This document shows positions 11,401 through 59,500 of a stretch of 64,000 nucleotides of DNA, piece after piece; the stretch's first letter is position 1; every line of letters starts with the position of its first letter. Origin of the DNA: Antedon mediterranea. Lineage: Eukaryota; Echinodermata; Crinoidea; Comatulida; Antedonidae. The DNA is taken from positions 1,493,001 through 1,557,000 of the forward strand of contig NC_092675.1 in NCBI RefSeq assembly GCF_964355755.1. The letters run 5' to 3'. The notes under the pieces were generated by a model. The model saw only the letters and a program-made list of their open reading frames with translations. It ran no database searches and had not been told where the DNA came from. Both the position numbers and the translations under genes were made by a program.

Positions 11401-13550
11401 ACTCCAAATTAAAAATAACACAGCATTCAACCCCACTGGCAGCATTAATCTCTGCCTACACTATCAAACTAGTGTGCTGTGCCCAAATATGGTAGTGATA
11501 TGCTCAAATATGGTAGTGATATGCTCAAATATGGTAGTGATATCACATCATCATGTCCATATATGGGCACACCACATTTTTTGTCCATACCTTAGGTAAG
11601 TATTTTTGTTTTTGTTCTTCATTTCCATTCTTTACAATTTGGTTAATACATAGGTTTGAATGGGCACCATAGCTCAGTGAAATTGAAGCACTAGCTCGAC
11701 TCATCTCTTCCAGAATGATACAATGATCAAGGTAGCCACCTCCAACACCACCATACTTTTCTGAAAAATAAAAATAATTTAAATCATCAAATAATTCATA
11801 TAAATACAATATATTACAATATTCCTTTATTCCTTTTGTCCCCCTACAAACATTTTTGTTTTCAATTTTTTTTTAATATACTGTACCATTTTAATGTCAC
11901 ATTTTAACTGTTACCAAATATTGGATCCAAAAAAAATATTTACCTGAAAAAACTGTAATTTAAAGCAAAAATAGTCAAATAGGCTGCCAGCCAATGGGTT
12001 TTATGTTGAATTTAACTGTTTACTTTGTCATTTTAATAAGTGAAAACATTTTTTCGGAGTTTTTTCTACAGAAGTGATTAAATTTACATCTATACTAACA
12101 ATACATACTATACATCTTTTAAATCATTCATATGAATATGTACAATATTCTTTTAGAATAAAAAAATGAATTCAAAAGAATCTTTAAATAATCATTACAA
12201 AATGATTAGCTTTACCAGGCACTGCAATTCCGTGAAAACCCATGTCACCTAGCTTTTTCCAAAATTCCTAAAATATAAAAATATAATGTATTAAATTCTA
12301 GTTTGAAGGACAAAAACCAACAGTTTAAAAGCCATCTATGATTGTGTAAATAACATAGAAAACATTTTAAAACCTGAATTGTGCATTTAATTGTAAACAA
12401 TGACTGTTTGATAATGTTTAGCTCTGTCTAAAATATCAAACTCGTTTGACAAAACAAGTGCCCAAATATGGTAGTGATAATGGTATGCTTAAATATGGTA
12501 GTGATATGACATCATGATGTCCACATATGGGCACATCACATCATGACAAAGCTTAAAGCTCTGTCTACACTATCAAACTTAATGTGACAAAAAAATGTTG
12601 ATGATGTCATATCAGTACCATATTTGGGCATACTGTATCACTCTTTTTTTGTCAAACTAGTTTGATAGTGTAAACAGAGCTTTAGTGTATGAATATTAAC
12701 GTAGTATGCCTACCCTTATTTGTTTGAATTCATTTGTTCTATCAATCTCATCTGCATATGGTGCAAGCTCTTCTTGAGCGAAGCGGAAAGCAGTTTGACG
12801 AAGCTGAAAGTGCACAAATATTATATAATCACCATTTTAATTGTTTTTATTATTTAATTTAATAAATTATGATTTTAAAATGATAAATCTATACATTAAG
12901 CTATCTTGCAATTTTTACGACTGTTGTGAGAAGCAATCATAATTCGTCAATATATATGCAGCTGCCGTTAATTTTCTAACTGCAAGTATACATATCATGT
13001 AGAAATAAATAGAATAGACAAAGACACTATTATAACTTTAAAAAAAATGCATTAAAACGTTCAAGTTATTACTAGAATGCTTTTTATTTACTATTTATTT
13101 ATATATAGGGTACTGCTCTGCTTTTTTGCAATATTATTATAATAAATATTCATGGTGTTGTGTATTAATATAGTCAAGCACTACTATTCATTATTAAAAC
13201 CTAGATTCTAAAAACCACACTCTCAAGCTCTCAATAGCAGGCAGGACTGCCACAAACATACAAATATCATTATAGTTCACTATAATATTTCTAGGCCTAT
13301 GACACAATACGAGTACGACCTTCCTCACTCATTCCATCCCCGCTCGGTCCCACCTCTACCACCTGGACATAGCCATCTACCTAGCTAGGCCTATATATAT
13401 GCCTACCTGTTTTTGGTCCTCCGTAAGACATGAAATTTCATCGTCAACTTCTACATGAGCAGAAAAAGATCGGAAACATTTTGAAGCACAGCTCTTATAG
13501 CTATTATTCAACCAAATAGACCGAATAAAGTTATTTGCCCTTAATGCCAT
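8404..13550 (-). CDS. IVD: Isovaleryl-CoA dehydrogenase, mitochondrial
   Basis: FAD-dependent acyl-CoA dehydrogenase of the mitochondrial matrix. It oxidises isovaleryl-CoA to 3-methylcrotonyl-CoA in leucine breakdown and passes electrons to ETF. Eleven exons (transcription order): 13407-13550, 12714-12803, 12216-12267, 11591-11760, 11273-11366, 10623-10753, 10159-10255, 9843-9936, 9629-9710, 9163-9340, 8404-8540. They give 422 aa, the usual length. Residues 1-35 or so are Arg/Ser/Asn-rich with few acids, as expected of a transit peptide. The IVD-specific catalytic glutamate is in [12 protein letters not shown] (E281 of the precursor), in helix G rather than the position used by other acyl-CoA dehydrogenases. 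[13 protein letters not shown] and [13 protein letters not shown] are family blocks. One oddity is that the usually conserved SEPNAGSD loop reads SEAGSGSD. It is divergent from CRIP1. Confidence 0.96.
9440..9627 (+). repeat. SINE-like element with (AAAC)n tail
   Basis: This stretch in IVD intron 9 has GTACACGTTAAAGAATGCAG, a partly repeated GTACAC/GTGTAC block and CCCGGTGTACTGCC, and ends in ACAAACAAACAAAC. The core plus simple tail resembles central domains shared by several animal SINEs. I could not find a convincing tRNA or 5S head, so the copy may be 5'-truncated. Confidence 0.4.
10288..10441. repeat. 77-bp tandem duplication in IVD intron 6
   Basis: Two virtually identical units containing CATACATAGCGGGCGTG start about 10288 and 10365. 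Near identity implies a recent duplication. It lies between exons 6 and 7 and does not touch splice sites. Confidence 0.85.
10534..10620. repeat. Short tandem duplication next to IVD exon 6 donor
   Basis: AAACTGTTCTATTCAACTTC followed by TGGCATACACT or AGGCATACACT occurs twice with a period near 38 bp, ending at 10620, beside the exon 6 donor (exon ends 10623 on the minus strand). The second and third bases of the intron are therefore part of the repeat edge. Confidence 0.7.
10993..11138. mobile_element. MITE family A, copy 2 (degenerate right end)
   Basis: Left end TTAAGCTCTGTCTACACTATC and the body with TGTGCCCATATATGGACA are clear. The right inverted repeat has decayed after ATCAAACT. It is intronic in IVD. 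Confidence 0.65.
11449..11590. mobile_element. MITE family A, copy 3, abutting IVD exon 4
   Basis: Left end ATCTCTGCCTACACTATC and central CATATATGGGCACACC are family A. A 22-bp internal segment (CAAATATGGTAGTGATATG) is present three times in tandem. The right end stops at ACATTTTTTGTCCATAC, immediately before the last base of exon 4 (11591), so the splice donor (minus strand GTATGGAC) lies inside element-derived sequence. Confidence 0.65.
11868..12080 (+). repeat. Dispersed repeat family E, copy 1
   Basis: It contains TTTACCTGAAAAAACTGTAA, TTTAAAGCAAAAA and TTTTAATAAGTGAAAACAT in the same order as 58725-58970 and, reversed, 52195-52480. It is an interspersed repeat without recognised coding capacity, in IVD intron 3. 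Confidence 0.55.
12418..12554. mobile_element. MITE family A, copy 4
   Basis: TTAGCTCTGTCTAAAATATC at the left end, ACATATGGGCACATCACATC near the right, and a shortened right end GACAAAGCTTA. It is directly followed by another copy. Confidence 0.65.
12555..12684. mobile_element. MITE family A, copy 5 (tandem with copy 4)
   Basis: Both ends are well preserved (AAAGCTCTGTCTACACTATC and GATAGTGTAAACAGAGCTTT), flanked by TTA/TA. The adjacent position to copy 4 suggests insertion into the TA at the older copy's edge, in IVD intron 2. Confidence 0.75.
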
Positions 13551-16800: not shown

Positions 16801-18544
16801 TTGAAAATGTAGCTTTTAACAGAAACATAGAAACAGTATAAAAGGCTAAATACAAATATTAGACATTCTTTTTAAACAAAAACGCATGCCAACAAAAAGC
16901 TTACATTTAGTAATTAAATCTACTGATTGTGTTAATTTTATTAGAATGTTTATAAATGGTCATCAAAAATGGCATATAACATACATCATGGCATACTGTG
17001 TATAAACATTTCAGAAACACAGATAAATGTGCCCTTAAACAGGGGCTTTCCACCTGTATATTGCACTCCACTACATTCAAAACAGCTTAAATCTCCGTCT
17101 ACACTATCAAACTTTATGTGCAAAAACAATGTGATGTGCCCAAATATGGTAGTGATATTAATGGTAGTGATATGACATCATGTCCATATATGGGCACATC
17201 ACATTTTTTTGTTACATAAAGTTTGATAGTGTAGACAGAGCTTTGGAACACTAGGCCTAATATATGGTGTGTTTCTGTTATTTTTCATCTGATTTGTAGA
17301 AAGTTATGATGATTAGATTACATAATCAAATGATGATAGTTTTAATCAGATTTCCTCTCTCTCAGGATAAGGAGTAGTCAGGGGTCTAGACTGGTCTACT
17401 AATACTACTAACATTCATATCTAATCTCTCTGCACTAATTACTTACAGTGTGCTCAACTTTTAAATTATTTGAAACAGTATTATTTAAAAATCCCTATTT
17501 GTATTCAGACCACTATTAACTTGTTTATTATTGTTTTATTTAACTTGTTTTATATGTTATTATTTTTGTTATATTTACGTGTTTAATGCAATACTTTGTA
17601 ATGTTTATATTTTAGATTATAAAAGGATCCCAACGGAAATAAGCTAATAAGCTTTTCTATCCTGAAAAATCTGTTATAAATGTATTATTTGTAATGTCAG
17701 TAATTTATGTTATCATTTTGTATTTTTATTTATTTATTTATTCACAATATTTAACCAGGGTGGGTGGCCCAATCAGTCAAAAAGACTGGTCTCCTTGGGT
17801 ATTTTTTATGATGATTTTCCTAATAAATTCAAATCAAAATCAAATCAATATACATACAGATTTTCTTAGTAGAAATAACATTTTTATGGTTGTCCACCAA
17901 ATCAGCGTTTCGATTTTTGTCTCAATACTACGTAATAGTGAGCTCAAGTATTATGCGTATGAAATGCCATATGTGCCAAAATATCAAATTTTACTAATTA
18001 TGGTCTAGAACTATAATAATAATTAGAATCCTGTTGTATCCTGATTAAATGGATTAATATCAATAACAAACAATGACAATATCTTTGTTTCTTTTTTAGC
18101 ATAATGGAGATCCATATTGCCATCAACCTTGTTATGCTAAAAAGTTTGGACCTTCGGGTAAGAACCTACCAAAAATAGTATGAGTACAAATTACGTCAGA
18201 GTAGGCAAAACATCTGACCAATTACTCAACTCCCTGACGCAAAGCTACTCCACAGTAGATACAATTACAAAAATAATATGCTTTCTCATTGAGAAAACTA
18301 ATTTTTTTAATGAAAAATGTAAACTGTATACAATAGAATACATGATTGTTTAGTTCAAACATTTTTTAAAACTTGACATATGAATATGATAAGTCAAGTA
18401 TGTTTCAGCCCAAGCGCCAACTGAAACATGCCTGTTTTTATATTTGATTGATGTGGCCTAATAAAGATGTTACTTTTCTTTCTCACAGGTTTCCGTGGAG
18501 GATCATCTACCGCTCCAAACAGCTACTACAACAAACCCAGATAA
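13805..18544 (+). CDS. CRIP1: Cysteine-rich protein 1, single LIM domain
   Basis: Small intracellular zinc protein of the CRIP group, thought to act as a protein-protein adaptor. Exons 13805-13844, 15102-15196, 18100-18157 and 18489-18544 give 82 aa; vertebrate CRIP1 is 77. Zinc ligands are visible: C4, C7, H25, C28 for the first finger and C31, C34, C52, C56 for the second. The start [15 protein letters not shown] and the linker [12 protein letters not shown] match CRIP1 closely, and the C-terminal tail after FGPSGFRGG is Ser/Asn/Tyr-rich and diverged. Only one LIM domain is present, so it is not a two-LIM CSRP. Intron 2 holds a minisatellite that begins in the exon 2 end. ATTAAA and AATAAA signals follow the stop (about 18602, 18806). 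Confidence 0.96.
14954..14985. repeat. Isolated family A terminal repeat
   Basis: CTAAAGCTCTGTCTACGAGA matches the family A end, but no body or second end follows. It is probably a truncated copy in CRIP1 intron 1. Confidence 0.4.
15176..15835. repeat. 65-bp minisatellite derived from CRIP1 exon 2 end
   Basis: Seven near-identical 65-bp units (anchor GTAGTAGATTAGGTGG, recurring every 65 bp from about 15385 to 15790) are preceded by three degenerate units. The first unit begins within exon 2 itself: CTCTGGTGGTCATGCTCAG then the donor GTACGT. Repeat units carry the matching CTCTGGTGTTCTTGCTAAG. A degenerate unit at about 15296-15330 keeps CACGCTCAG followed by GTATGT, which looks like a second splice donor at 15314/15315. 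Confidence 0.92.
17086..17244. mobile_element. MITE family A, copy 6
   Basis: Ends TTAAATCTCCGTCTACACT and AGTGTAGACAGAGCTTT with a palindromic body (GTGATGTGCCCAAATATGG, CATATATGGGCACATCAC). In CRIP1 intron 2. Confidence 0.78.
17525..17830 (+). repeat. LINE-like 3' UTR relic
   Basis: AT-rich tail with GGATCCCAACGGAAATAAGC and a stretch of TTTATT simple repeats before CCAGGGTGGGTGGCCC resembles 3' ends of CR1/L2-type or similar non-LTR elements. Related GGGTGG-CCC or ACCAGGG blocks occur near 19262 and 46920. No reverse transcriptase remains. Confidence 0.3.
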
Positions 18545-18950
18545 ATATTGTATGACCATGGCAACTGCTCCATCAAGAGGACCAGAATACCAGTGCTTTT
18601 ATTAAATGTACATATTTTTTTTAGCAAAAGTATAGTTAGGTGCTTAAGCCTATTTTATAAGTTTCACGCTTAAAAAACATCTAATTTTTTAGAAATGACT
18701 CAAATGATTTAAGTGTTTCTTATCAACTTAATAATTAAATCATAAATATATGTAGATTGTATTTAAAATTATTCAAAATCATTATTATGATAAAAGTTGT
18801 TTCTAATAAACCAGACTTAGTTCATAAATATGTAAATTATATTTTAAATTATTCAAAATCACTATTAATTGTAACAAAAGGCTGCAGACAAATAATTCAT
18901 AGCCACAACCTGAACAACTCAATGTATGAAACTAGTGACTTGTCAGTATT

Positions 18951-19157
18951 CAGCTCTGTCTACACTATCAAGATAGTTTGACAAAACAAGTGTGATGTGC
19001 CCATATATTTACCAGATTTCTAGAGCGCCCTTTTCATGAATACTCGTGCTCAAAGGTACTTCACATCATAATGTTATGATGGTAGTGATATGACATCATC
19101 ATGTCCATATATGGCCACATTTTTTGTCACATAATGTTTGATAGTGTAGACAGAGCA
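18951..19157. mobile_element. MITE family A, copy 7, with nested insertion
   Basis: Ends CAGCTCTGTCTACACTATC and GATAGTGTAGACAGAGC are intact. About 65 bp of unrelated sequence (from TTTACCAGATTTCTAGAGCG to TTCACATCATAATG) interrupts the centre. The insert has CATGAATACTCGTGCTCAAAG, a motif pattern seen in other dispersed animal repeats. Confidence 0.7.
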
Positions 19158-19317
19158 CAAATGTTAATTTTGTTAAATTGTATTCTAAATTTTCTGTTTT
19201 AAATATGGTATTCACGTCAAAATAGAATATCTGTTAATATACTTTATTTATTTATTTTATCAGGGAAGAATGTTTATACAGTATATTGTCCCCTGGTCTA
19301 CCAGAAAAAAATGCTCT

Positions 19318-19453
19318 TTAGCTCTGTCTAGACTATCAAACTTTATGTGACAACAAAATGTGATGTGCCCATATATGGATGTGATGATGTCATATCACTA
19401 CCATATTTGGGCACATCACACTTTTCTAGTTTGATAGTGTAGACAGAGCTTTA
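19318..19453. mobile_element. MITE family A, copy 8 (near-consensus)
   Basis: Well-preserved 136-bp copy: TTAGCTCTGTCTAGACTATC at the left, TAGTTTGATAGTGTAGACAG at the right, central GTGCCCATATATGGATG and CCATATTTGGGCAC, TTA on both sides. Confidence 0.8.
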
Positions 19454-39973: not shown

Positions 39974-41452
39974 TTAAGTGTTAGGCACATTTAAATAGAA
40001 ACATTCTGACATTGTTATACTACACAAGAAAACGTTTATTATTACAATAAAATTAAAATACAATGTTGTAAAAAAAGCCTCTATAAAGAATACCAAAAAT
40101 AACTCAATAAGTCTTTGTATCTAAATTTCATTTAGTCTAATAAGTTTTATAAGCCATTATGCTCTATGTATGACATTCGCTTTAGAAAAACCAACCTTGA
40201 TAGTCTTTTTTGAAATATTATATTAATATAGTGCGTACTATTGCACGCCATGTGACCTACAATCATCCAATCAAATGACAGGAATTTATTTAGGTGTTAT
40301 ATAACAAACATTATTCTACACTCTGAGTGGAATGTTATTATTACTACTATACAATTTTAGAATATCAATTTACAATATAACAAAATGGCATCCTATGAAA
40401 TCGTTAATATTTAGTCACACTGTGCCTTGATTTAGAATTTTATAAAGATATAATAAATACATAATTGTTACTTTTAAATTCCAGACATTCACCATACTGT
40501 GATCAGTTGTGATTTAGTCAAGAAAGTTTACTCCCAGATAGCAATTATAGATAGCTATATTTTTAGAAAACATATCAGCCTCTCACCCAATCGGTGCCAG
40601 TGGAATGGTTGTGTATATAATAAAGAACACCCATGTTGATTGTGATCAAGGGGCAATTTGGTGTCGCAATTGCTACAACTGATCATAATATTACACACGT
40701 CTGAAAAGGCTTTCAACTTGTTATTTCCTACAATGTGAACTTGTTATTAATATGGGTCACTGTATATACACAGTTTCAGGTTTACTGCATGCATACACTC
40801 ATGATCAAGCATTTTATGTTATCTCTCATAACTATTTTCATTTATAAAACTTCAATCAATATGTTATAGAGCAAAATGGAAAATTCCCATTAATACAGAA
40901 TAATTTGCAATAGCATATGCTGAATATTATATACAATAAATAATGTTTAAAAAAATGAATGCAAACATTAATACTGTACAACGTATACAAGTGTAATATT
41001 TAACTATAAGTATAAACTGTGCTTTAGCTATAAATTATTGTACTTTCCATTATACAATCCATTCAATTAAAATGTGCCTTGTGCATTCATTTGCTTATAA
41101 TGAAACTAAATCAGTATACCTCTTACGTACACTAAATATAAAAAAGAAAGGAGAAAATACTAATACATATTTTATAGATAAATATAAAGCTCAATCTACT
41201 ATGGAATATTAATAATAATGAATAAAAATAACACTTTAATATTATAGCACAATACACAAATATAATAAACAGTGTATAAATTGAGGTATATTATTGTAGA
41301 AATGTGGTAAATGCTAAAGTGCTTAAAAGTGAAGCAAAAACATGTTGCTATCAAAAAGATAAATAGTTGTATGACAAGAAACACGGCTAAAGAATAACCA
41401 ACATATATATGTATTTACATTTTTATACACTTCTTTTTATAGGTAAACAAGT

Positions 41453-42280
41453 AAGGAAACAAAGTTAAGTTAGGAAACAAAGTTAAGCAAGGAAACAAAG
41501 TTAAGTTATAAAAACAAAGTTAAGTTAGGAAACAAAGTTAAGCAAGGAAACAAAGTTAAGTTATAAAAACAAAGTTAAGTTAGGAAATGAAGTTAAGTTA
41601 TTAAAAAAAACTTAAGTTAAGCCTGGTTTCCATTAAAATCGCTACAGAGTTTCCATTAAAATCGCTACACGCGCAGATGTCGCCGACGCAATCGGGAAGG
41701 CTCCCCGATTCATCGCAGTCAAATCGGCAAAGTTCAACCATGTTCAACTTTGCCGATTTTGTCGGCGATGAATCGTATACGCGTACCAAAGAATATTTAG
41801 CGCTCGCGTACTAGATCCCCGATAAATTCTAGCGTTTCCATAGAATCACTACGCTCTGTCATGTAGCGATTTTATGGAAACCAGGCTTTAGGAAACAAAG
41901 TTAAGTTAGGAAACAAAGTTAAGTAAGGAAACAAAGTTAAGTTAGGAAACAAAGTTAAGCAAGGGAAAAAAGTTATGCAAGGAAACAAAGTTAAGTTAGG
42001 AAACAAAGTTAAGCAAGGGAACAAAGTTAAGTTAAGAAACAAAGTTAAGCAAGGGAACAAAGTTAAGTTAAGAAACAAAGTTAAGCAAGGAACAAAGTTA
42101 TGCAAGGAAACAAAGTTAAGCAAGGAACAAAGTTAAGTTAAGAAACAAAGTTAAGCAAGGGAACAAAGTTATGCAAGGAAACAAAGTTAAGTTAGGAAAC
42201 AAAGTTAAGCAAGGGAACAAAGTTAAGCAAGGAAACAAAGTTAAGTTAAGAAACAAAGTTAAGCAAGGGAACAAAGTATA
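41453..42280. repeat. 18-bp minisatellite split by a MITE
   Basis: Units of AGGAAACAAAGTTAAGTT or AGGAAACAAAGTTAAGCA with 16-17-bp variants fill 41453-41612 and 41891-42280. The gap is the MITE at 41618-41890, so the array predates that insertion. Because the usual unit is a multiple of three, its complement stays open for 83 codons of a six-residue motif; it is not a gene. Confidence 0.93.
41618..41890. mobile_element. MITE family B, long copy inside the minisatellite
   Basis: Inverted ends TTAAGCCTGGTTTCCATTA and ATGGAAACCAGGCTTTA, then AAAATCGCTACA and TGTAGCGATTTT. The centre carries a second inverted pair, CGCCGACG/CGTCGGCG-like, with AAATCGGCAAAGTTCAAC and its complement. TA flanks fit a Tc1/mariner-type integration. 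About 273 bp. Confidence 0.82.
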
Positions 42281-46200: not shown

Positions 46201-48216
46201 CACTGTGCTTTCGTACAGTGTGTGAACGCTGTACAAGATTCCCAGGGATAAAACTAAAGATCCTTTTGAAGCAAAACAAAGCAAAATAATATATCAAATT
46301 AGGTTTGCTATAGGGAGGAAGTTTTTCAAAAAATTCGTAAAACTTAAAGAAAAAAATAAAATGTAAAAAATTATTGTTTTAATTGTAGATTGCATTTATT
46401 TTATTGTATTACTTACAGTCAGAAGTTTACTTGTTTTTACAATCAATTATGACACAAAAATAATATATTTTTTTACAAAACATCAAATTACAAAATGTGT
46501 ACAGTAATTAAAAGACATAGTAAAAAAATTAATTTCAATAATATAATTATATTTAAAAGAGATATTATCTAAAAACTGATTTGATACAGAAATGCCATGT
46601 CTAATACTGTTGAATGCATTATTATTATTATTACTAAATTTCCATTTCATTTTTTAATAATTGTATCTAAGGAATTCATCTTTACAAATTAAAATCAAAA
46701 TCTTACCACAAATGTAATTAGTTCCAGGATGTATCCATATAACAATAGAGAGAACAATGTACAGGCCGCCACGCTTCCAATTATCAAACCATCGCAAACA
46801 AGCCCAGAACTTTCCACAACAATTGTTTATGCTAGAAAACAAATTTGAAAACATTTATCATTTTATCTTAAAGAGGGAATCCCAGATTAATTTTTTTATT
46901 TATTTCAACAATATTTTATGAGGGTGGTCCATTAGGGACAAGATAAGTAAAACCACTGCTTTCCACTGGGCCTTGAATCATAACAAGATAAAAGCACACA
47001 GTATTTGGCGTAAAATTGATAGTGCAAAGTTGTTTTGCATTTCCTTTCATGTATTATACATATGTATTGTTGGGACCCTCATGAGACAAACATTTGCTTC
47101 TTCTAGTGAGGGCCCTAGCTATCATTGTTATAACTGAAAAAATGTGTATGAATAAATGAATAACAAATTATTGAGATCATCTCAGATATATCTGCTTGAT
47201 AGATTGATATAAATTACAACCATAACAATTTTTATTCCGATAAAAGGCAATATTGTGGCTGCCATGGGTTCATAGAGGACCTTATCCAAATTTCCTCAAT
47301 TGAGGATTGTGCAGTTAAATGAAAAAAACAAAGACATTTTCCATAAATCTCAAATATTTACAGATAGGCTGTTTTCTGGATCTTCCCAAGCAATTCGATT
47401 AAAGTCTTTATAACCTTTGACCTTCAAAAAACTTACTTGCAACATTTATCTAAACATGACCCAATGAGAAAGGCTCCTTCTAATAGAGTTAAAACAACAG
47501 CTACAAATCTGTGTAAATGAGAACAGAAGTTGCAATAAACACAAATGAATTGTATCATTAACATCAATTTCAATAATTTCAAATGCGTTTAAAAGAATCA
47601 GATGTTTTCCAAGAAAAAAAATAAACAAATTAAGCAACTGTAGGATTCATTCAAGTTAGAAATATTAAATAAAGTGTTCTTTAATATTTAATAATACCAG
47701 TATGATTAGAGGCCTAACAGTAATATATAAATAATAATTTACAAGCGATAGGTAGTGAGTGTATTTTATAAAATATAGGCTAATTATTATTAATATTAAC
47801 CTAAAAAAAACAAAAAAATTATACTTCACTTACACCAAATATGCTCCTACCCATGGTTTCACACTTGTACAAAGATCAATACCAATAGCCCATGTCACTA
47901 AAATAAAATGGTTTAAATATATATAAATAGTCTATAAATATAGGCTAGGCCTACTGACAGAGATGAACACCAATGTTGCTTGCTAAGGCACCGCTAAAAG
48001 TGGATCTATAATGCCTGGCAAGACTGACGCTGACTAGCCTAGCTTACCTGCCTGCCTGGTGGGCGTGTATCACAATGTAAATAATGGGTTTAATCATTGT
48101 TTATGTTTGTTTTTTATCATTGTTATCTTACCTACTGCAGTCAATATTCCCCATGCACGTATGATTAAAGTGTAATGCTCCCAAATCCAAATGCAAAAAG
48201 CATTATTACAAGCCAT
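43278..48216 (-). CDS. TMEM72: TMEM72-like four-helix membrane protein
   Basis: Membrane protein of unknown biochemical function. Five exons: 48132-48216, 47834-47897, 47437-47508, 46707-46831, 43278-43483, all phase-matched, giving 183 aa and TAA. Predicted helices: about residues 13-32 (LIIRAWGILTAVVTWAIGI), 42-62 (AYLVFVAVVLTLLEGAFLIG), 87-102 (LYIVLSIVIWIHP) and 112-124 (IMIDILGVMYIA). It shares with human TMEM72 the W-x-x-E start, the GI-TA-V...IG helix, the VxxxEGAF helix, the following cysteine cluster (CLDKCC) and the HP after helix 3. The tail is short and charged (KGRDPKPKAEKNKEE), whereas the vertebrate protein has a far longer cytoplasmic tail. Helix 4 is reached by direct joining of exons 4 and 5 across a 3.2-kb intron; a missed small exon cannot be excluded. 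Confidence 0.8.
44039..44198. mobile_element. MITE family A, copy 11
   Basis: Left ATGCTCAGTCTACACTATC and right AACTAGTTTGATAGTGTAGA; central GGCCCATATATAGACATG. In the large TMEM72-like intron. Confidence 0.72.
44235..44337 (-). other. Possible alternative first exon of the TMEM72-like gene
   Basis: On the minus strand an ATG at 44337 opens 34 codons (starting MASFYILLVMGLF, hydrophobic) and ends at a GTATGT donor in the phase that joins exon 5 (43483). There is no upstream AG acceptor near it, so it could only be a first exon, not an internal one. Without transcript evidence it may be chance. Confidence 0.2.
44467..44632. mobile_element. MITE family A, copy 12
   Basis: TAAAGCTCTGTCTAAACTATC minus one base at the left and AGTTTGATAGTACAGACAGA at the right. 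The CATATTTAAGCATATCATTAC block is a partial internal duplication. 270 bp from copy 11 in the same intron. Confidence 0.75.
47040..47165 (+). repeat. LINE-like 3' end
   Basis: GTTGGGACCCTCATGAGACA and GTGAGGGCCCTAGC form the small hairpin typical of CR1/L2-like 3' UTRs, followed by GTATGAATAAATGAATAA. A comparable hairpin (GAGGCTCCAC, GTGAGGGGCCTC) occurs at 51775-51830. Confidence 0.35.
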
Positions 48217-48384
48217 GTTTCCGGCGTTATCTAGGCCTCTGGTAGCTTATCTCATGAAATATTTTACCCCGCCTCGATTGCGCCATCTAGCTTCTCGCTC
48301 GACTCTCTCCAGTCGCCGTGTGTACGTATCCGTATTTTAACGGAATTGGCTATTTACACGATAATAATATACTGTACACTGAAT
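48217..48384 (-). promoter_or_regulatory. Remaining promoter region of the TMEM72-like gene
   Basis: 168 bp separate the start codon from the foldback element. The stretch is CpG-richer (CCCCGCCTCGATTGCGCC near 48280) and includes GCGCCATCTAGC, a YY1-like site. The transposon must either contribute to the promoter or leave only this fragment. Confidence 0.35.
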
Positions 48385-48396
48385 GGGATCCAGTCA

Positions 48397-48594
48397 AGTC
48401 GCCCCATCGCAAAGTCGCCCCATACAAAGTCGCCCAATACAAAGTCGCCCCATCGCAAAGTCGCCCCAAAACAAAGTTGCCCCGGCACAGTCGCCCCATT
48501 ACAAAGTCGCCCCATCGCAAAGTCGCCCCAACGCAAAGTCGCCCCATCGCAAAGTCGCCCCAACGCAAAGTCGCCCCATCGCAAAGTCGCCCAC
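48397..48594 (+). repeat. Left arm 16-bp repeat array
   Basis: Tandem AAGTCGCCCCATCGCA units with substitutions in the CATCGC part (CATACA, CAAAAC, CAACGC). Both strands stay open in several frames purely because of the repeat. Confidence 0.95.
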
Positions 48595-50317
48595 GGTTTT
48601 ATTTCGGAAGTGCCGCCGCTAGTAGTACGCTGTTTTAATCATATAGCGGTTGCGTTTGATATCGATTGCGTTGTTACTTTGGTCGCGCTAAATGTCGTAT
48701 ACATTATAATGTTTATCCTATTATATACATAATTTGTGTTTTAATTTTTATTTTAAAGGTTATAATGGAGTGATGTGCTTTTTAAAAATCATTAAAAAAT
48801 AGTCCCTTGTTTGAAAGTTCTAAAAAGATTTCGAAAAGATTATCCCTGATTTATAGTTTCGAAAATGTTAATTTAATATGATTTTAAAATTAGTTACCAG
48901 AGCCACAATTACGAATCTTTCTTCAACCTACGTGGATACCAGCTCATTTTTTTAGGATAATATAATAAGTGTATAAATAGTAGGCCTTCGTATATTTACA
49001 GTAGTTAAAACAATAACAGCGTTGTAAGACAATATGTTATATAGGCTACTTATTGATCATTTTGCATTTATTGACAAGTGTCTATAGTTATTTAATTTTA
49101 ATTATGACTTTTCAAAATGAAGAAATAAAAAAAGGGGATTTCTTCGCCGATATGATCGTTTTGCACATGCAGGTATTTTAGTAAAATTAAAACGCTACAT
49201 TTTGACCATGGAAAAACCATCGTACAGATGATTATCGTGTGCATGTTTTTTAAAAAGGGGAATCCCCGACGGGCAGCAGAATTAAAGACGTAGCAGCTGT
49301 GAGAAGGAAACAGATACCAGAAGGAGCAGCTCCGATTGGTTTCAGAGAATGTTTCAGATTGCAAGTCGCTTTTTATTCAACAGCAGAAAGATCATTTTAC
49401 TGAAGAAATTCTTTTCAACCCTTTTGGTTATAGAACATTCTAATTATCATGCCTAATAAATATCCTCATATCGGGTGTTTATTTAATTTTAATAAACAAG
49501 ACAGTGAAGAGGCACGGAATAATACGTACACGGACGTACGACGAATACACACATGCACGTCATCATTTACGACATAATATAGTGGCGATATGATGCAATT
49601 TTATAATGGATATAATGATGGGATTGCATTTCCAGGCTTATAATCAATGTTCATTGTAATACTATGTATATAATAGTAAACTGAATGTTTATAAACAAAT
49701 TGTTTTACCTAATTTGTTGCATATAAAAAATAAAAGACACAGACGTAGCCTACGTTCCCTATAAAATATTTCACATTTGAATTTATGTACTGTTAAATGA
49801 CATTATGCTGAATAATAGGCTTACTATAATCTTAAACTATGTTTACAAATTGTCATTTTTAAGGCACACATCTTTCTCTCATCATAGACCTCAGTGTAAA
49901 ATAAAAACAAAAATCAATTATTAATATAGGCCTAATAATAATAAATATTCATCGACCAAAGTAAAAATAATCTAGATCGTATAACATCATTTTATCGCGA
50001 CCAAAATTAAACGCCACCGATTTCGAACGCGACTGATATCATCGTAAAACTCCGACGGGGTTTCCCCATCTTCAGATGGTGCGTTGTAGTGTGACAACGG
50101 CGGAGTAATTACGGGGGTTTCCCTCTGGTGAGAGCTAGCACGTTAGTGCGACCGCGGAGTGATTAGTTGGGGGCTTCCTCTCTGATGATTGGGGAGCGTG
50201 CCGATCGTGTGACCTGAGACTACATGGAGGGGCTTCCCCTTTTATGCCTACACGTTCCGTGTTATTTTGTGTATCATTGCGACATTTTACGCACTTTTAA
50301 ACTATTTTTTAACGTTT

Positions 50318-50515
50318 TGGGGCGACTTTGCGATGGGGCGACTTTGTGTTGGGGCGACTTTGCGATGGGGCGACTTTGCGTTGGGGCGACTTTGCGATGG
50401 GGCGACTTTGAAATGGGGCGACTGTGTCAGGGCGACTTTGTTTTGGGGCGACTTTGCGATGGGGCGACTGTGTATGGGGCGACTTTGTATGGGGCGACTT
50501 TGCAATGGGGCGACT
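50318..50515 (-). repeat. Right arm 16-bp repeat array
   Basis: The complement of the left array: GGGGCGACTTTGCGAT units in tandem. Unit order is not a perfect mirror of the left arm, which suggests the arms change copy number independently. Confidence 0.95.
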
Positions 50516-50839
50516 TGACTAGCATCCCACTGAATATATGCGAGTTGACAAAATTGCGATCTCAGACGATTTTATTTGTCCAACCATTAAGCTATACAAT
50601 TAAAATGTAGCTCCATGGTCTAACTACATTTATATTATTGAATTTCATAAAAGATACATTATAAAAAATAATTAAAAAGTGCAGAAAAAAAACCATAAAA
50701 ACAGCTCACCTACAAAGCCATCCATAAACAATCATCGCAATATATTTCATCACTCATTTTCTTCCAGACAACTTGCAGAAATCTTCGTCATTCATCCATA
50801 TCTTCGCCTCGACTATTCCCACCAAGAATATGCAGACAT

Positions 50840-56501: not shown

Positions 56502-59500
56502 ATGAACAAACTCGAACAACCATCATTTGTTCGTGAAAAGAACGTATTACGTACTATTAACTCAATACGAGAAAGGTCTGTTATAAAATAACGATTTACC
56601 TAACTAGCCTAGGGCCTAGCTAGCTAGGAGGCTTAGTAGGCCTAGTGGGTTAACGGTTAGGCTAGGCCTTTTTTAGGCTAGCCTAGCTAGCTAGCTAGGC
56701 CTAGCTAGGCCTAGGCCTAGTATGCTAGGCTAGCCTAGGTCTTCTTGATCTAGACTTCCTACCATTATGATCCTCCTGGACGGTTCTAGCTAGGCTTAGG
56801 TAGAAGGGTAGACCTTTCATATAGGACCTAGGTTTGGCCAGTGGTAGTACTACTACTAGTAACTGTTATGCGCGATTTGAACGATTTGCGCAATTTGAAA
56901 TTGCGCAAAAAAATCCTTGCGCAATTTGAAATTGCGCAAATAATTCTTGCGCAATTTAAAATTGCGCAAGGATTTTTTTGCGCAATTTCAAATTGCGCAA
57001 TCAACTTGCGCAATTTCAAATTGCGCAAGAAAATCTTTGCGCAATTTTAAATTGCGCTGCACAATTTGTAAATTGCGCAAGATAGTTCTTGCGCAATATG
57101 ACACCTTTGCGCAATTTGAAAACGAACTGTAAATTTTCCCATACATGGCTATAGGCTAGGCCTAGGCAGAGGAGTTTAAAATTTAGTATTTTATTATATA
57201 AATAAGACCATTTCAATGAAGATAATGTTTAATACTCACTTTTTAAGTTTTTAATATTAGTTTAAGCTAGGCCATGTAACCTAGTCAGTATCAGTAGTCC
57301 AGACCCTAGCTAGGCTAGAGTAGTATAGCCGGCCGCCCGCGCCGCGCCCGCCTGGTGGAACACCACCGCTTCGTTTTCCTTCGTCGGTTCTTCGACGATA
57401 TGCTAACTTATAACAATATTTGCACTACTAAAATAAGGAAATGCGATATTTATCCTTATTTTTGAATCATTCTTAGAAATTACTATAAAAATATGGGTGT
57501 ACATAATTTCACAATCTGTCGAAAAACCTTGCGCAATTTGCAGATTACTTGCACAATTTAATACGTTGCTTGCGCAATTTGAAACACATGTTTCAATTCA
57601 AATTGCGCAAGGATTTTTTTTGCGCAATTTCAAATTGCGCAAATCGTTCAAATCGCGCATAACATAACTAGTAGACTGTACTACCTGCCTAGTCTAGTAG
57701 TAGGATAGTAAAAATTAGGAGGGGAGTCTACCCCCAGGCATAAGGCTATAAGCCTAGCTCGGCTGTGGATATAAATACTAGGCTAGTGAGTGTAGAGTAG
57801 TGTTCGTATTGAAACGTAAATAATAATATGTAATGGTTTATTTGTATTGTATAATATTCTAGTTTCTCAGTATAGGCCTACTAATGCTTTTTTTTTGCAG
57901 CCGACAAATTGAATGGCTACGAAGGTTGAAGAAGTTGCAAAAAGTTGAAGAAAACTTTAAACAGTTTCCTCTTTTACCAATATATAAACCTAGGTAATAT
58001 GTGAACGCCAATAAGATACAGCAAGTAAATATATAGATACTTAAATCAATCTTTTTTAATTGGATTCCTTTTAGTTCAGGAGTAGAAATGATATTCCATT
58101 TTGTTCATCTTTAACGTAAAGTTTATAAATAATATTTTTAGCAAACTAAATCAACATAATATCTTTCATCAAATCAACATTTATTTCTTCCACATAAAAT
58201 AAGATATCCTCATGATCAAAAATAATGAGTAATAAAAGCGATTTCAGAGATGATAAGGCATAAAATAGAAAAAAAGACATTGAAAAATTGTAATTTGAAG
58301 GAAGAGGGCAATTACTCAAAAAGTACAGCAGATGAAAAACAGAAATTCTAATAGTCAAATGACATTGTTTGCTATATTACTTTTGTGCTAAAAATCATCT
58401 TCAAAATAATGTTAGTTAAATTTAAATGATACATTATGACTACGTAGGTTAAAATTATACTAAAATATGTTTTAAATAATTAGACTTGTTGATCCAGCTC
58501 CTCATTGGATAACATTCTTCCGTCAGAAACAAGCTTTTCAATATGTTACAAGTCATCAAGAGGTTAGTCAATATTATGTCATTGTATTGAGATGTATGTG
58601 TCATAATATAATAGGTGCACCAATTGCAGGATGAGCATGTTCGTTTGGACCCAAAAATAAAAACTGGTCCTTTAAACTAAAAATAATTGTCGTTTTTGTC
58701 CATGATATGCATTATGATGTTCCTTAATTGTTATTGACTTTGACCAAAAATTTGATCGAAAAAACATTATTTACCTGAACGATTTGTAATTTAGAGCAAA
58801 AAAATTGTTTTTGGATTAAATTTAATCATTTGTTTTGTCTTTTTATAAGTGAAAACATAATTTGTTATGAGTTTTAACTTTATTAAAACAAAATGATCTA
58901 ATCTGATTTTATTAATCTTCATTTTTCATGTTTTTTGAGGAACAATACATCTTTAACCTTTAGCTATAACAACTGTTTTTCAGGATGTTCATGTTTTTGC
59001 GTACGAAATCGACAAAAATCTGTCAGAGAACAAGGGACAGCGAAAATACTGTGTGACGTCGTATTCTCAACTATGGCACGTTATTAAACATGCGGCAAAA
59101 GGTTGCCACGTTAGTTTCTATGAGGTCATTCCAGACGGAGCAACTTGCAAACTTTACTTTGATTTAGAATATAACAAGCAAGAAAACCCAGGGAATGATG
59201 GGAAACAAATGGTGAACACTCTTATTCAGGTTTGTATACCTGACAACTTTTTACAGTAGCTAATGCGCAAGACAATAATTTGAAATTTAATACAGTGTTG
59301 ATTCTTCCTTTTTCTTTGTCTTTTTCTTTCGGAACCTCTCATGATACTTAAAACAAATGGTGAACACTCTTATTCAGGTTTGTATACCTGACAACTTTTT
59401 ACAGTAGCTAATGCGCAAGACAATAATTTGAAATTTTATACAGCGTTGATTCTTCCTTCTTCTTTGTCTTTTTCTTTCGGGACCCCTCAGGATACTTGTT

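Follow-up and report, generated by a model that had tools for sequence, protein, structure and literature searches.

The Locus and Its Repeats

The window, a stretch of 64,000 nucleotides from the crinoid Antedon mediterranea, contains the 5′ part of a TMEM72-like gene and, upstream of it, an element bounded by two inverted arrays of a short tandem repeat (Table 1). The PF16054 match that identifies the gene comes from an exon within 46654-46854, and the first exon, with its start codon at 48216, is a presumed one. The element lies about 160-168 bp upstream of this presumed ATG. Replacement of the promoter, as proposed in the first-pass annotation, is not supported, since it is the position of the element that the locus shows.

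Table 1. Features of the element and of the neighbouring gene (positions in the window).
Feature	Position	Strand	Remarks
5′ part of TMEM72-like gene	46654..48216	-	PF16054, E 4.4e-8, joined exons
Whole element, 2,143 bp	48385..50527	+	Left to right in family orientation
Target-site duplication, left copy	48377..48384	.	CACTGAAT
Left end motif, 11 bp	48385..48395	+	GGGATCCAGTC; 19-nt end exact at 165 genome sites
Left array, 13 units	48396..48592	+	Core CAAAGTCGCCCC plus short variable spacer; irregular short unit mid-array
Interior	48593..50317	+	Without transposase similarity; 95-98% common to most full-length copies; passenger DNA
Three degenerate units, 57-59 bp	50113..50246	+	Inner side of right arm; cores at 50113, 50170 and 50229
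Right array, 13 units	50318..50516	-	16-bp repeat of left array, inverted
Right end motif, 11 bp	50517..50527	-	GGATGCTAGTC as read on minus strand; 19-nt end exact at 163 genome sites
Target-site duplication, right copy	50528..50535	.	CACTGAAT

Each arm of the element is about 208 bp long and consists of an 11-bp end motif followed by 13 units of about 16 bp. Tandem Repeats Finder (TRF) reports the 16-bp unit at 12.6 and 12.7 copies in the two arms, and over 201 nt the stretch 48392-48592 shows 96% complementarity to 50320-50520, confirming the pair of inverted arrays that had been described at 48377-50535. That span is correct with the duplications included, and the element proper runs from 48385 to 50527. 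At the left junction CACTGAAT adjoins GGGATCCAGTC, and at the right junction GACTAGCATCC adjoins CACTGAAT; the identical 8-bp flanks are a real target-site duplication. The termini, which had been called matching and of GGGAT type, are similar but not identical (GGGATCCAGTC on the left, GGATGCTAGTC when read from the right). Tandem-repeat inverted arms within a duplication, the structure that defines a foldback element, are present, as are the inverted ends of more than 100 bp with subterminal tandem repeats that characterize Mutator-like elements (MULEs) of the Phantom/Muta kind.

Other repeats are found in the same window. At 56864-57664, arms of 50 nt with 100% complementarity are separated by 701 nt; their sequence is based on a self-complementary unit, TTGCGCAATTTGAAATTGCGCAA, and they may represent a further element of foldback type. 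A sequence of about 67 nt recurs in several inverted copies, with complementarity of up to 95%, at 17089-19386 and 12555-12598, and it resembles a miniature inverted-repeat element. An 18-bp unit of the AGGAAACAAAGTTAAGCA type forms two direct arrays at 41449-42277; no inverted partner was seen there, and these arrays are therefore not a foldback.

A Genome-Wide Family

The exact 19-nt ends occur at 165 left and 163 right sites in the 354-Mb genome (18 contigs), while a reversed control pattern of the ends has no match in the same 354 Mb. Pairing by polarity, at distances of no more than 30 kb, yields at least 123 elements genome-wide, ranging from 81 bp to 16.9 kb (the copy at G000:C1:8205947-8222857) with most between 1.9 and 2.2 kb; this and the other copy counts are minimum values, since they include exact ends only. 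Exact 8-bp duplications flank 91 of the 123 pairs, a number that re-pairing would put at 0.9. Another 8 pairs have exact 9-bp duplications, defined as flanking 8-mers that match after a one-base shift, where re-pairing predicts 0.16. Of the other 24 pairs, some have flanks with one or two mismatched bases, and the remainder have flanks without a match. This mixture (91 of 8 bp, 8 of 9 bp) falls within the mixed lengths of 8-10 bp that mark MULEs. The target preference is weakly palindromic: among 86 distinct exact 8-bp duplications, a GT start or an AC end is present at 22% per half-site, against a background of 5%.

The first-pass annotation had identified the element as a foldback transposon. 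This holds, since there is a genome-wide family with paired ends and duplications, and the finding survived the test by which that annotation would have been refuted, namely an absence of other loci with ends, arrays and duplications or membership in a larger satellite block.

Some members have a more complex arrangement. At G000:C3:9595756-9599967, two lie head to tail; a single GATGATAC separates them and another borders each outer end, an arrangement that represents a tandem copy with a shared duplication. Single ends with identical flanking 8-mers are found at G000:C7:13501855, 13507342 and 13511423, at C4:17099122, 18812480 and 18859839, and at C9:13910667 and 14090698; these are likely to represent one insertion multiplied along with its surroundings. 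An inversion signature of swapped duplications, as in Galileo, was looked for among the copies, and no clear reciprocal pair emerged.

Recent Movement and Deletion Derivatives

The family has been recently mobile, and the element in the window is a gene-less member of it. Its interior is 95-98% identical to that of most full-length copies, and four further left arms are 100% identical over 234 bp. Homogenization of the arms within a copy was considered and rejected, as the two arms within a copy resemble each other no more closely than arms taken from different copies (p 0.31).

Two copies of 725 bp with one common internal deletion are identical at 723 of 725 positions and are flanked by different duplications, ATACATAC and ACCCTGCT, so the 725-bp derivative must itself have moved. 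The degenerate inner units, of about 58 bp, had been proposed as a second transposase-binding domain. The units exist, but they are absent from the 725-bp derivative at both of its sites and are thus not required for movement. The interior as a whole is passenger DNA that can be lost. Still shorter copies, of 346 and 81 bp, are also present, with 8- and 9-bp duplications; in these, deletion after insertion is possible.

A Transposase-Bearing Copy

Nothing resembling a transposase was found in the window element or in the common copies that were read. A relative with such a gene, of the sort that the first-pass annotation had suggested looking for, does exist. This copy, L080 (G000:C7:5449137-5458047), is 8,911 bp long and is flanked by the exact duplication CTATTAGA. 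Both of its arms are in register with those of the window element, down to the irregular short unit in mid-arm, with 96.6% identity to the left arm of the latter. Between the arms (L080:4804-8068), six exons with GT-AG junctions make up an open frame of 553 codons without a stop, and a further upstream exon is possible.

The frame matches the MULE transposase domain of Pfam (PF10551, E 8.8e-13), a match that lies between family ends in this one copy. Its N-terminal part, as a joined exon pair, matches FLYWCH (E 1.4e-5) with 25.6 bits against a curated cut-off of 23.6; on the whole 553-aa protein the score is 23.2 bits, just below that cut-off. A reading by eye for the DDE catalytic triad picked out IDGT and MDFE stretches and located no third residue. 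A search inside L080 for a nested pair of inverted ends found none. Among the copies read, L080 is the one in which a MULE gene was located.

Other long copies proved not to be carriers. The 8.7-kb copies L061 and L062 were rejected as autonomous elements, because the scanned frames of both lack a transposase domain; L061 contains an insertion of about 7 kb within the standard interior. The extra length of L063 is a LINE with an endonuclease and a reverse transcriptase.

Assignment of the Family

The window element very probably belongs, as a non-autonomous copy, to a Mutator-like family of the Phantom/Muta kind whose ends are of foldback type. This reading is adopted because the architecture, the duplication length and the L080 protein all match the mosquito element Muta1, described below; and since Muta1 has similar ends, 8- or 9-bp duplications and similar domains, a MULE is the expected owner of such ends. 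By contrast, an origin without any transposon, through local duplication of two minisatellite arrays in inverted orientation, agrees with what tandem-repeat finders show at the locus, namely just two minisatellites. It retains practically no credibility, being refuted by the numbers of exact ends against none in the control and by the 91 exact 8-bp duplications, in a family whose 123 paired copies share common ends and a fixed polarity. The affinity proposed in the first-pass annotation was to hAT-like or TU-type elements, for which the 8-bp duplications of those 91 pairs and an architecture recalling that of sea urchin TU would speak. Such kinship is not supported and is highly improbable, because hAT dimerization-domain matches fall inside a family copy at none of 59 places in the genome, by a first-look filter that may miss weak matches, and because the 8 pairs with 9-bp duplications give the mixture of 8 and 9 bp that is the habit of Mutator-like elements. 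In addition, the ends of hAT elements are of the CAGNG kind, whereas those of the family are GGGAT/GGATG, and the sole intact-looking transposase in the family is that of a MULE.

The P superfamily is a more serious competitor, if an unlikely one. Here, the family would be related to Drosophila Galileo and moved by a THAP-domain P transposase like the truncated one in L064, a copy of 3,679 bp with family ends and the duplication GTTGGAGC. L064 has matches to TNP-like_RNaseH_N (E 1.7e-40), Tnp_P_element (8e-13) and THAP (1.4e-7) and, at the protein level, to the P transposase structure 6p5a (E 1.2e-15). Galileo, moreover, combines long repetitive arms with the palindromic target GTANTAC, to which the GT/AC half-sites of the family may be compared. 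However, only 1 of 33 P places is inside a family copy, the truncated P gene of L064 forms a fusion with a shortened left array, the related P copies read elsewhere in the genome (L067-L069) are without family arms, and the arrays contain no canonical THAP sites. P elements make duplications of 8 bp and Galileo of 7 bp (sometimes 8), whereas 8 copies of the family have exact duplications of 9 bp. The P superfamily, which L064 had brought up as an answer, was dropped because L080 provided an intact-looking MULE gene between arms of the identical type and because the 9-bp duplications emerged. The P gene of L064 is most likely a nested P insertion that subsequently suffered a deletion. It is very doubtful, though a shade less so than hAT or TU kinship, that one set of foldback ends is or once was used by both the L080 MULE transposase and the P-type one captured in L064; if true, identical foldback ends would have served two unrelated transposases.

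Two further repeats are associated with these P-bearing copies. Nested in L064 (L064:2150-2617) is a different dispersed repeat, very abundant and often present as inverted pairs. In L068:3870-4691 (G000:C6, about 11713470-11714290), inverted arrays of the 14-bp unit TGAATGAAATGTTT adjoin a P-type transposase frame; this is a second foldback-like structure, unrelated to the window family.

Comparison with Known Systems

The closest counterparts are Muta1 and Muta5, Mutator-like elements of the mosquito Aedes aegypti, the former of which its authors class as a foldback element of type 2 (PMC5225508). Like the present family, they have long ends in which short subterminal tandem repeats accompany a short terminal motif, generate 8- or 9-bp duplications, and are accompanied by many non-autonomous derivatives (hundreds in the mosquito) with varied interiors and unit numbers; their transposases of 504-554 aa combine FLYWCH and MULE domains, as does that of L080 (PMC5225508). 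Muta1 and Muta5 have 9 subterminal tandem repeats, the Muta1 unit being 12 bp with spacers of 3-4 bp (PMC5225508). The crinoid family differs from them in its host, in having 13 units instead of 9, and in a unit sequence that is unrelated, as judged from the description. Its transposase-bearing copy is also larger, at 8.9 kb with six exons, those of the mosquito being 3.2-3.5 kb long and having two or three exons. Among the three, Muta1 is the one with demonstrated activity.

Tm1, a Mutator/foldback family of the Phantom subclass from root-knot nematodes, likewise has composite, internally repetitive inverted ends, with a FLYWCH-MULE transposase in few copies and many small derivatives (PMC3169594). 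Its duplications are mostly 9 bp, with a range of 8-10 (PMC3169594), whereas 8 bp dominates here by 91 to 8. No target preference was reported for Muta1 (PMC5225508) or Tm1 (PMC3169594), in contrast to the weak GT..AC preference of the present family.

Galileo, a Drosophila element of the P superfamily, resembles the family in its foldback-like arms with tandem repeats, its palindromic target preference and the predominance of non-autonomous copies (PMC3688188, PMC4168063, PMC3573991). It differs in its P-type transposase, its 7-bp (sometimes 8-bp) duplications and its arms of 0.5-1.2 kb. Sea urchin TU and Drosophila FB resemble the family in overall architecture, with arms made up of short tandem repeats, as cited second-hand in PMC4079207. 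Compared by description with these nearest systems, the family is a new one of the known Phantom/Muta MULE kind.

Mobilization and Significance

On the best reading, a transposase of the L080 type moves the window element in trans. The 16-bp arrays may be the binding sites of this protein, by analogy with Galileo, an element of another superfamily in which long inverted-end repeats bind transposase (PMC3688188) and multiple transposase-binding sites have been shown in the arms (PMC3688188, PMC4168063, PMC3573991). A FLYWCH-MULE transposase like that of L080 would thus bind the arrayed units and bring the two ends of an element together, whereupon the element would be cut out and inserted elsewhere, a cut-and-paste reaction in trans. 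Insertion would take place at a break with a stagger of 8 bp or, sometimes, 9 bp, and fill-in would then leave the duplication.

For annotation, the family illustrates that architecture by itself would point to hAT, TU or P, while the mix of 8- and 9-bp duplications, together with inspection of the long members, settles the class. The series of copies, whose lengths extend from 81 bp to 8.9 kb and beyond, is natural material on the number of arm units needed for movement. Above all, a foldback family that repeat finders see as two minisatellites is now linked with a Mutator-type transposase gene that lies in the same genome and appears to be intact.
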